Positions 2,884-10,645 of a DNA stretch of 35,052 nt are shown here, piece after piece. The position numbers and the translations under genes were made by a program. How positions within the stretch are numbered: position 1 is the first letter of the stretch; the number at the start of each line of letters is the position of its first letter. This DNA is from Desulfotomaculum sp. GTDB lineage: Bacteria > Bacillota > Desulfotomaculia > Desulfotomaculales > Desulfallaceae. The notes under the pieces were generated by a model. That model had not been told where the DNA came from and did not search any database. It saw only the letters and a program-made list of their open reading frames with translations. The stretch is taken from NCBI GenBank assembly GCA_016841675.1, contig JAENYQ010000032.1, positions 1-35,052 on the forward strand, read 5' to 3'.

Positions 2884-3179
2884 AGGACACTGAAAAAGTC
2901 CCGAAGTTGAAATGAAGAATCTATAAAGTCGCTAAATACTTATATTCTTTGCTGCTCAGAATTATCACGCGTACCCGCACTACGATAAACGAATACAACT
3001 TACCGGTTGCTATTTATAATTGACCAAATTACCCATTTTGCAGATTAAGCTTGTCATCCTGAGCGTAGCGAAGGATCTGAGCCTTAAGATTCTTCGCTGC
3101 GCTCAGAATGACAGATTTGTTGTATTCATAGCGATGACAATTAGCTATTTGCTATATTAATTAACTTTTTCAGTGCCCT
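2884..3179. repeat. MITE-like element with 16-bp terminal inverted repeats
   Basis: The 411-nt gap between recR and bofA holds no convincing gene. Positions 2884-2899 and 3164-3179 are inverted copies of each other with one mismatch (core CACTGAAAAAGT / ACTTTTTCAGTG). Inside sits the palindrome at 3052-3113. Just outside, 2860-2880 carries CCCCTGAAAAACCAAACC and 3191-3201 carries ACTTTTTCAGG, which match the borders of the element at 3557-3663. The structure is a non-autonomous element, or nested elements; no transposase is present. Confidence 0.6.
3052..3113. repeat. Long REP-like palindrome (27-bp arms, 8-nt loop)
   Basis: Positions 3052-3078 and 3087-3113 are reverse complements with three mismatches, so RNA from either strand could fold into a long hairpin. 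The core is GAGCGTAGCGAAGGATCT. One arm recurs at 10-36, and a degraded left arm occurs near 34836-34861. Confidence 0.85.
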
Positions 3180-3556: not shown

Positions 3557-3663
3557 TCCTATATATTTCCCCCTGAAAAACTAAATTTCAAGGGGGATTG
3601 GTGTACACCCTGTAGATAACACCAAACCCGCATCAAGACTTTTTCAGGGGGGAATATATAGGA
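3557..3663. repeat. 107-bp MITE-like element with 26-bp terminal inverted repeats
   Basis: The 357-nt gap 3540-3896 has no gene but contains this element. Its ends, 3557-3582 and 3638-3663, are inverted copies with two mismatches (TCCTATATAT then CCCCTGAAAAA). Inside is a second inverted pair, GATTGGTGT (about 3596-3604) and AACACCAAACCC (about 3618-3629). The GGTGTT/AACACC core recurs at 19839-19924 and 34881-34911. It follows bofA directly and could also end transcription. Confidence 0.75.
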
Positions 3664-8005: not shown

Positions 8006-8060
8006 TTGCCGTTCACACTCCTTTTTATCTTCGCACAGCCTGTAAGACCCTGCTAAAGCG

Positions 8061-8116
8061 GAAAGGGGACATACCTCTGCTTACTGGTCTTACTTTTGGG
8101 TCGAGGAATGTCCCCA
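8061..8116. repeat. Palindromic repeat, single unit with enlarged loop
   Basis: GAAAGGGGACATACCTC (8061-8077) and GAGGAATGTCCCC (8103-8115) form an imperfect hairpin around about 25 nt. It is the intergenic relative of the units inside the decarboxylase gene (8390-8467 and 9161-9238). It lies in the 360-nt gap 8006-8365, which otherwise holds only the hairpin at 8204-8241. Confidence 0.8.
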
Positions 8117-8203
8117 ACGTATAGGTCAAAACCTCACCTGAACCAAGTCTTCTTTATTATTTTGACCATAGAAAAACTCTTTATGATGTCAATGAAATGC
8201 AAG

Positions 8204-8365: not shown

Positions 8366-9994
8366 GTGAAAATTTTGCCTTTTAATGTGGAAAGGGGACA
8401 CACCTCCTACGGAGGAATGTCTACAGAGGAAAGGGGACACACCTCCTACGGAGGAATGTCCCCAATTGGTGATATGGACCTACCGCTGGTTAATGCATTG
8501 GAAGAATACCGCCGTAGGCGCCCGGTAAGGCTGCATGTGCCCGGTCATGGCGGAAAATTGATGGACGGGCTTGGGGGTTTTGATGTAACCGAATTAGAAG
8601 GTCTGGACGATCTGCATCACCCCGTTGGGGTTATCGCAGCGGCCCAGGAAAAAGCCGCCAAGCTTTATGGGGCCCGGCATACATTTTTTTTGGTCAACGG
8701 GACCACGGTTGGTATTCAGGCCCTCATCGCAGCCTGCTGTGACGAGAATCAGCCCCTTGTGTTGCCGCGCAATGCGCACCGCTCCGTACTGGGCGGGCTT
8801 ATTATTAGTGGTGCCCGTCCCATTTTCCTTGCACCTGAAGTGGTGCCCGGGTTTGAATTTGCCGCCGGGGTTTTGCCGCAAGAACTGGCTGATGTTTTGC
8901 GGCAAAACCCCGGCGTCGGAGCAGTACTGGCGGTGCATCCAAACTATTACGGTGTGACGGGAGATTTGGGCGCAGCGGCGGCAATTTGCCATCGGTACAA
9001 TGTCCCTCTGCTGGTTGACGAGGCTCACGGTACCCACCTGCGCTTTCACCCCGACCTGCCCGCTGATGCACTTTCGCTTGGTGCCGACGCTGTGGTGCAG
9101 AGTGTGCATAAAACCGGAGGCGCTTTAACCCAGTCCTCCTGGCTGCATTTGTCAAAAGCGGAAAGAGGGCACACCTCCGCTGGAGGAATGTCTACAGAGG
9201 AAAGGGGACACACCTCCCTTGGAGGAATGTCCCCAACTAATGGTAGGGTGGACCGGGAAAGGGTGGCGGAGGTGCTGCGTTTGCTGCAGACCACTAGCCC
9301 ATCGTACTTGCTGATGGCTTCACTGGATGCCGCCAGGGGCTACCTGGCCCAAAATGGCAGGGAGAATTTGGACAAGCTATTATGCTGGATTCACGAGGCG
9401 GTACCAATAATTAATAAAATGCCCGGCCTAACATCATTGGGCACCGGGCATCTGGGGAGTTCCGGCATTACTGGACACGACCTCACCCGGCTGGTGGTTT
9501 CGGTACGCCAGTTGGGCATATCGGGACACACAGCGGCTCGGTGGCTGGCCCAAAGATGCAGTATTTACGTAGAAATGTCTGATGTGTTCAATATCGTGGC
9601 GGTGCTATCTCTGGGCACAACAAAGTCTGACATCATTGCGCTGGTCAATGGGCTGGCCGAACTAAGCCGCCAGGCCGGACAAGGTGAAAATTTCCGGTCC
9701 CCAAATCCGCTGCCGACTGGCCCACCGATACCGCCGCAGGTATTAACCCCGCGTCAGGCCTGGTTGGCGCCGCGCCGGGCTGTGCCCATGGAGCGAGCCG
9801 CCGGCCAGGTCAGTGCTGAATCGGTGGCTGTATATCCGCCGGGAATAACCGCCATTTACCCTGGGGAGGAAATTACCCCGGCGGTTGTAGAATACTTACT
9901 ACAAGTGCGTGAATGTGGATTGCATCACCAGGGCGCCGCTGACTTGAAGTTGAATAGCATCCAGGTGCTTGATATTAAAAAGCACGCGCTATAA
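8366..9994 (+). CDS. Orn/Lys/Arg-type PLP decarboxylase with two in-frame repeat insertions
   Basis: Fold-type I PLP enzyme of the Orn/Lys/Arg decarboxylase group, in the place of Bacillus yaaO (between csfB and tmk). Signs: LHVPGHGGK near the N-terminus, LVNGTTVGIQA, DEAHGTH (218-224) and the PLP lysine in QSVHKTGGALTQ (K249). The gene carries two dimers of a 13-codon palindromic repeat: residues 9-34 and 266-291 (units ERGHTSYGGMSTE and similar). Removing these extras leaves about 480 aa, the normal family length. The GTG at 8366 keeps the first dimer in the protein but has no clear ribosome site; the ATG at 8474, right after the dimer, gives the family-typical MDLPLVNAL start and may be the real one. 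The second dimer, between strand SSWLHL and RVDRERV, is unavoidably translated. Substrate is not known. Confidence 0.88.
   Translation: MKILPFNVERGHTSYGGMSTEERGHTSYGGMSPIGDMDLPLVNALEEYRRRRPVRLHVPGHGGKLMDGLGGFDVTELEGLDDLHHPVGVIAAAQEKAAKLYGARHTFFLVNGTTVGIQALIAACCDENQPLVLPRNAHRSVLGGLIISGARPIFLAPEVVPGFEFAAGVLPQELADVLRQNPGVGAVLAVHPNYYGVTGDLGAAAAICHRYNVPLLVDEAHGTHLRFHPDLPADALSLGADAVVQSVHKTGGALTQSSWLHLSKAERGHTSAGGMSTEERGHTSLGGMSPTNGRVDRERVAEVLRLLQTTSPSYLLMASLDAARGYLAQNGRENLDKLLCWIHEAVPIINKMPGLTSLGTGHLGSSGITGHDLTRLVVSVRQLGISGHTAARWLAQRCSIYVEMSDVFNIVAVLSLGTTKSDIIALVNGLAELSRQAGQGENFRSPNPLPTGPPIPPQVLTPRQAWLAPRRAVPMERAAGQVSAESVAVYPPGITAIYPGEEITPAVVEYLLQVRECGLHHQGAADLKLNSIQVLDIKKHAL
8390..8467 (+). repeat. 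Tandem dimer of 39-bp palindromic repeat at the 5' end of the decarboxylase gene
   Basis: Units 8390-8428 and 8429-8467 share the first 32 bases. Each contains GGGGACACACCTCC and, a few bases later, GGAGGAATGTC, which are near-complementary arms. Both read in the same frame as the dimer at 9161-9238. Confidence 0.92.
9161..9238 (+). repeat. Tandem dimer of 39-bp palindromic repeat inside the decarboxylase coding region
   Basis: Units 9161-9199 and 9200-9238 match the 8390-8467 dimer in length, order and frame, including the unit-1 ending TCTACAGAG and unit-2 ending TCCCCAA. The insertion adds 26 residues or slightly more and keeps the frame open. Differences are concentrated in the loop codons (TAC versus GCT and CTT). 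Confidence 0.93.
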
Positions 9995-10021: not shown

Positions 10022-10645
10022 TTGACAGCGGGCAAGTTTATTGTTTTTGAAGGAATTGACGGTTCCGGCAAAACAACACAGATGAAATTGCTGGCTCAAG
10101 CGCTGGAAAAACGCGCTATGCCGGTCTTATGTACCCGGGAACCCGGTGGTACAGATATCGGCACCCGGCTGCGGGAACTGCTGCTGGACCCAACCTGTCG
10201 GGATATAACCCACCGCACCGAAGCATTTTTATATGCGGCTGACCGTGCTCAGCATGTAACCGAAAAAATTATGCCCGCCCTACGCCGAGGAGATACCGTG
10301 CTTTGTGACCGGTTCATATACTCCACCCTGGCCTACCAGGGCGGCGGCCGCGGCTTGGATAGAGAATTTTTAGCGCGTCTAAATGATTTGGCCACCGGCG
10401 GTCTGGAGCCAGACGCTGTGATACTACTAGACTTATCTGTGGAAGAAAGTATCAGTCGGGTGCTGGGCGACCGTTTTCCCGACCGGCTGGAAGCAGAAAA
10501 AAGCGATTTTTTTGGGCAGGTGCGCCGTGGGTACCTGGAACAGGCAGCCCAATGGCCCCGTTTATTTAAAGTAATTCAGGCCGGGGCAGTGGTGGAAGAA
10601 GTGCACCGGTCGGTGCTGGTCTCCCTGCAGCAAGTCCTGGCCTAA
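10022..10645 (+). CDS. tmk: Thymidylate kinase
   Basis: Phosphorylates dTMP to dTDP with ATP for DNA synthesis. The 207-aa protein has the P-loop FEGIDGSGKTTQ (about 9-20), the dTMP-site motif TREPGGTDIG, the DRAQHV and DRFIYSTLAYQGGGRGLD motifs, and the LID region DRFPDRLEAEKSDFF with arginines. The start is TTG, with AGGAGA about 9 nt upstream. The order decarboxylase-tmk-holB matches Bacillus, although yaaQ and yaaR are missing between tmk and holB. Confidence 0.96.
   Translation: MTAGKFIVFEGIDGSGKTTQMKLLAQALEKRAMPVLCTREPGGTDIGTRLRELLLDPTCRDITHRTEAFLYAADRAQHVTEKIMPALRRGDTVLCDRFIYSTLAYQGGGRGLDREFLARLNDLATGGLEPDAVILLDLSVEESISRVLGDRFPDRLEAEKSDFFGQVRRGYLEQAAQWPRLFKVIQAGAVVEEVHRSVLVSLQQVLA

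Follow-up and report, generated by a model that had tools for sequence, protein, structure and literature searches.

How does a gene for a conserved enzyme come to carry the same palindromic sequence twice and stay in frame? The window analyzed here (the whole stretch of 35,052 nucleotides, from a Desulfotomaculum draft genome of 3.84 Mb in 162 contigs) contains such a gene. The original prediction was that two tandem dimers of a 39-bp palindromic unit lie in frame in one decarboxylase gene and resemble the protein-coding palindromic elements of Rickettsia. We found the dimers at 8390-8467 and 9161-9238 on the forward strand, each made of two 39-nt units, with hairpin cores at approximately 8394-8424 and 8433-8463 in the first and at approximately 9165-9195 and 9204-9234 in the second. 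Both are read in the frame of a single open reading frame (8366-9994, forward strand; 542 codons including both inserts) that matches the Pfam profiles OKR_DC_1 (1e-60) and OKR_DC_1_C, the profiles of a YaaO-like gene of the Orn/Lys/Arg decarboxylase family. The closest named decarboxylases are from Desulfoscipio, Sporotomaculum, and Desulfallas, and the 3' neighbor is tmk (at 10022; Pfam Thymidylate_kin).

The two dimers encode near-identical peptides at different positions in the decarboxylase. The stretches 8384-8477 and 9155-9248 (94 nt each, with two 39-nt units per stretch) are 84% identical, and their units are of the ERGHTS-x-GGMS type, including the peptide GHTSAGGMSTEER. The N-terminal dimer reads ERGHTSYGGMSTE/ERGHTSYGGMSP, flanked by VKILPFN and DLPLVNALE, and the internal dimer reads ERGHTSAGGMSTE/ERGHTSLGGMSP, flanked by WLHL and RVDRERV and beginning about 14 residues past the presumed PLP lysine. 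In protein and DNA alignments of four species, the left edge of the internal insertion is the end of the conserved SSWLHL (9149-9154, forward strand) and the conserved frame returns at the VDRERV codons near 9248, in agreement with the predicted placement between these two blocks. Three congeners share the GTG start codon (8366) and open the protein with VKxLP. Because of this conservation, the N-terminal dimer is very probably coding, placed after codon 7 and ahead of the conserved DLPLV block, and we rejected the reading of it as 5' untranslated sequence only.

The gene does not look like a pseudogene, as all of the alignment-invariant residues of the family are intact, including the presumed PLP lysine K249. 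An AlphaFold model of the protein (mean pLDDT of 84, pTM of 0.86) had low confidence at residues 1-33 and 269-291, corresponding to the two inserts, and in short stretches at 65-67 and 441-447. The pLDDT was below 50 over both inserts, a value that may also reflect a lack of homologs there. In the model, the internal insert is a loop (269-291) that links the strand at 257-263 with the helix at 297-307; the alignment with 2x3l, the top fold match and nearest solved structure, covers the query through residue 264 and resumes at 297. The inserts in the decarboxylase, the one inserted protein that we modeled, are thus predicted to be disordered.

The repeated unit is an imperfect hairpin that occurs in several arrangements. 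The core of the element is GGGGACACACC-(stem/loop)-GGAATGTCCCC, and the unit is a 31-nt hairpin (GGGGACA-CA-CCTCC-NNN-GGAGG-AA-TGTCCCC) with an 8-nt linker. As RNA, the consensus hairpin has 12 pairs and a predicted energy of -20 kcal/mol. Some copies are single hairpins, some are tandem dimers or trimers, and others build nested arrays (L-L-L-core-R-R-R). In these arrays, left repeats are commonly spaced by 25 nt and right repeats by 17 or 14 nt, so that, in our reading, each step of nesting often measures 42 or 39 nt. The dimers that were proposed as the form of the element are therefore real, but they are not its basic unit. A third copy, of a long-loop form (~51 nt in all) with GGGGACA...TGTCCCC ends, is intergenic and upstream of the decarboxylase gene (8065-8115, forward strand). 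Several long-loop copies are nested in a bigger palindrome-like repeat (CCTGTAAGACCC...GGGTCAAAACCCC-CCTGAACCA), at 8041-8150 in the window and elsewhere in the same genome at C42:16020, C93:22170, and C29:45433.

The element is dispersed through the genome and through the order. The full pattern had 59 matches in the genome and none for the reversed control, and a 13-nt right half-site had 131 matches compared to 7 for the control. From 351 kb of sequence gathered around the copies, we resolved approximately 86 element loci. Among 113 genomes of the order, 46 contained the family, with up to 129 matches in one genome and approximately 70, counting both strands, in a sister species (G001), and the reversed control again matched nothing; a search of plasmids with the dimer gave no match. 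We found no report of the element in the literature searched, in which subscription papers were poorly covered, and Desulfotomaculum goes unmentioned in a paper on palindromes with GTAG/CGTC tags. Some copies occupy intergenic gaps in conserved operons (apparently L30-L15, and beside infA; for example, C45:29902 and C45:27002); these are in the sense orientation and often directly follow the upstream stop codon (TAA-GGAAA-GGGG).

Many copies are inside genes and in frame. By demanding an open frame through the element, from stop to stop, we found 14 internal in-frame sites in 13 genes: ligA, mfd, addA (two sites), topB, purL, treY, livF, wecB, gerXA, the decarboxylase gene, and the genes of the C45, C93, and C128 proteins. 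The N-terminal dimer of the decarboxylase is a fifteenth coding site. LigA, Mfd, AddA, PurL, TopB, TreY, and WecB each scored above the curated cut-off of at least one NCBIfam model; LivF and GerXA scored below the cut-offs, and the C45, C93, and C128 proteins had no NCBIfam match yet are conserved in congeners. Elements also appear to extend the ends of ProB (N-terminus) and of ribosomal protein L21 and HSP20 (C-termini), names that come from reading the sequences. The element is read in each of the three sense frames (RGHTS..GGMSP, GDTPP..EECP, and KGTHL..RRNVP), and in wecB it is antisense. The encoded units are near-identical in the two decarboxylase dimers, as had been proposed, but the peptide varies among genes (that in LigA includes IGDTPPAEECPQLMNVPNEPNYVVELK), and, with three frames in use, the inserted peptide is not one conserved sequence. 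The largest inserts are in AddA (ORF 1607-5938 of L221, C146), which has two nested arrays of 73 and 93 codons in different frames. Both AddA sites have shorter or degenerate arrays in the sister species, the first being filled in frame in G001 by a shorter array, so that array length appears to have changed within the genus without loss of frame.

Several of the inserted genes are the only copies available to the cell, as far as the assembly reveals. The forms of LigA, Mfd, AddA, PurL, and TreY with inserts were the sole matching copies found in the genome, and ligA was the only gene found for an NAD-dependent DNA ligase. LigA is essential across bacteria generally, and the inserted form is therefore very likely functional. 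We saw no frame-breaking insertion in coding-potential calls flanking all 86 loci and in the flanking proteins read, although broken genes could have escaped this screen because it used coding scores and inspection, partly by eye. Insert lengths were divisible by three in 10 of 15 gene copies and 29 of 71 others, a comparison that we do not use as proof because the true length is uncertain at most loci.

In-frame intragenic copies look concentrated in this genus, judging from 14 sites among 86 loci here and 6 internal in-frame copies of 27 sampled in G001 (a fraction biased upward because part of the sample was fetched as homologs of inserted genes; a seventh, antisense-frame match was discounted). 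In contrast, long ORFs held 1 of the 30 copies sampled in G029 and, for G006, no more than 1 of 29, in an ORF that is probably spurious.

Comparison with relatives revealed empty and filled versions of the same sites. Protein and DNA alignments showed gaps at the inserts in one, two, or three congeners for LigA, Mfd, TopB, PurL, TreY, the C128 protein, and others; the edges in LivF and WecB, for which only distant homologs were aligned, are less certain. The mfd site is a clean 30-nt insertion, with GAGGAAA^CAATTATTG in G001 and GAGGATA-[30 nt]-CAATTGTTG in the present genome. The internal dimer of the decarboxylase, the GerXA insert, and the C93 insert are filled in frame in both genomes, and the internal decarboxylase insert is therefore not an assembly error. 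Neither G002 and G003 nor the other aligned members of the family have an insert at the internal decarboxylase site; the only other carrier of the peptide at that place is G001, from the same genus, and no distant homolog in the alignment has it. The N-terminal dimer is not present as a dimer in G001, G002, or G003, with a possible degenerate remnant in G001.

Based on the empty sites in orthologs, the ~86 loci, and the 14 sites in 13 genes, we think it very likely that the sequence is a selfish hairpin element, non-autonomous, and that the proteins tolerate its coding-compatible insertions as translated loops, which supports the prediction of a protein-coding palindromic element of the Rickettsia kind in a Firmicute. 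Copies would spread through the chromosome, now and then landing in genes, and those that keep the frame, lack stops, and fall in tolerant loops or termini would survive as translated inserts of approximately 10 to 93 residues that are probably near-neutral for the host protein. We infer that the inserts are translated.

The orientation of the copies could point to a role in RNA. Of the gene-adjacent copies, 41 are oriented with the gene and 5 against it (14 to 1 for coding copies), a bias that exceeds an assumed null of 75% on one strand (p = 0.015). Twelve upstream genes have their stop codon 8-9 nt ahead of the core. The inner (free) part of the stem covaries across genomes, with C-G, U-A, and G-C pairs in a sample taken with a pattern that fixed the outer arms, which points to selection on the hairpin itself. 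All three observations fit an element that affects mRNA stability or transcription termination, or masks its Shine-Dalgarno-like GGAGG, with the coding copies as by-products. However, such a role alone leaves the coding copies unexplained, and strand-biased insertion could give the orientation bias, which is consistent both with single-strand insertion tied to replication and with selection and does not tell the two apart. We therefore regard an RNA-level role as a possibility of secondary weight. For intergenic copies, it is compatible with a selfish element.

The selfish element probably moves without duplicating its target. No target-site duplication was detectable, with a best flank similarity of 6.83 compared to 6.79 +/- 0.06 for shuffled pairs, which speaks against a MITE of a DDE transposon. 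The flanks are conserved, with AAGGAAA on the left (64 ends) and CAAYKTATG on the right (59 ends). The empty mfd site of G001 already has such flanks, indicating that they may reflect a target preference, for which there are few clean empty sites; elsewhere, the element may itself bring some of the flank with it. Because there is no detectable target duplication, the orientation is biased, and the flanks are GGAAA^CAAYNNATG-like, the element may move as a structured single strand; a search among Y1 transposase genes did not find the mobilizing enzyme.

REP-associated tyrosine transposases (RAYTs), which would move the element in the manner of REP/REPIN sequences, are conceivable mobilizers, though we doubt it. 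As with REP, BIME, and REPIN sequences, the element is a short imperfect hairpin in high copy, mostly outside genes, with no target duplication seen, and the genome has Y1 transposases. One RAYT-like Y1 gene (L066 1420-2175, C83) is flanked by 22-23-bp inverted repeats (AAAAAGGGGACAGGCTACTTTT) that have only the GGGGACA tip in common with the element. In contrast to the known families, the hairpin foot has no GTAG or CGTC tag, as judged from base frequencies at the 64 left and 59 right ends, and no RAYT bounded by the element was found. None of the Y1 ORFs that could be read in the present genome (G000), G001, G027, and G029 has GGGGACACACC/GGAATGTCCCC ends, in a survey of Y1 transposases in which three loci gave no usable ORF. 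G001 has just two Y1 transposase genes, both bounded by other, unrelated repeats. One Y1 gene of G000 has its own GGGGACAGGC repeats. Further, intragenic in-frame copies make up a substantial fraction in this genus, a difference from REP, BIME, and REPIN.

It is very unlikely that the peptide was selected, with the decarboxylase inserts serving as a functional loop. The internal insert has been kept in two species at 81% nucleotide identity, and both species encode the same amino acids in the GerXA insert, as might be expected of a useful segment. However, of the 26 codons of the shared decarboxylase insert, by our count, 3 differ synonymously and 5 non-synonymously; its residues vary freely, and it is predicted to be disordered and not found in the other family members aligned; other genes use other frames and thus other peptides. 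The in-frame retention and the substitutions fit the behavior of a relaxed, tolerated translated sequence. Also very unlikely is that the inserts are excised from the transcript in the manner of an intron or bypassed by the ribosome, giving proteins of normal length: each unit has a stable hairpin and the locations include important genes, but we know of no self-splicing intron nearly as small as the 30-nt unit, neither frame nor absence of stops would be needed and yet the internal sites found keep the frame, with each of the three sense frames represented, and a frame-breaking copy flanked by homology on each side was seen in no gene, in a screen that was not exhaustive.

The proposed tolerated selfish element appears to be of the same kind as coding palindromes described elsewhere, and to differ from them in its host, unit size, nested arrays, and orientation bias. 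Rickettsia palindromic elements were reportedly described by Ogata and colleagues in 2000 and 2002. They are palindromic repeats of 105-146 bp at many unrelated loci, in frame in conserved protein genes and also intergenic, with 44 copies in R. conorii, nearly half of them intragenic (PMC2229807, PMC10969869). The likeness, taken from descriptions and not from the Rickettsia sequences, is in the dispersed palindrome, the in-frame copies in conserved genes, and the intergenic copies. In contrast, the Desulfotomaculum unit is ~30 bp (10 codons), in monomers, tandem dimers, and nested arrays, and its host, a Firmicute, has a genome of 3.8 Mb, whereas Rickettsia is an intracellular alphaproteobacterium with a reduced one. 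The proposed likeness held in kind, but it is not particular to Rickettsia. Housekeeping genes of Wolbachia and Methanocaldococcus jannaschii are also described as having coding palindromes that are in frame and stand alone (cited in PMC2996958). By description, these are of the same in-frame coding kind in other hosts; the orientation bias and nested arrays set the present element apart from them and from those of Rickettsia. Coding palindromes are also reported from enterobacteria: the enterobacterial ERIC/RU and Neisseria Correia repeats (~100-170 bp) are at times fused in frame to genes, and most are listed with target duplications (PMC2229807), whereas none was detected for the element described here. 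A further kind is the PARCELs, palindromic coding repeats of several bacterial groups, including some Firmicutes (PMC2996958). As we understand their description, PARCELs encode a characteristic amphipathic repeat, whereas the three frames of the present element give unrelated peptides.

Most known coding palindromes belong to genomes that are reduced or unusual, and they are usually explained there by relaxed selection. The present Firmicute genome is of normal size and has them in LigA, AddA, Mfd, TopB, and PurL, and sister species show the sites empty, filled, or expanded. The supply of new protein segments by selfish DNA thereby becomes testable by ordinary enzymology, proteomics, and comparative genomics, and the order-wide family offers many natural replicates. 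The unit is open in 1.66 of 3 frames, compared to 1.31 of 3 for an average sequence of the same length. A rather speculative extension, which we think improbable, is that the element is fitted to coding DNA, combining a frame-open 30-nt unit, duplication-free insertion, and nesting in steps of about 42 or 39 nt (14 or 13 codons), by which arrays such as those of AddA could expand in essential genes and keep the frame, with mobilization by a class of enzymes that has so far not been connected with elements of this kind.

The window also contains repeats of other types. A different dispersed repeat (GATTCTTCGCTACGCTCAGAATGACA type) is present in direct and inverted copies at 1-64, 3052-3078, and 3078-3141, and a 24-bp inverted repeat (3557-3580 and 3640-3663; 96% complementary) has its arms 59 nt apart in a region with no long ORF.
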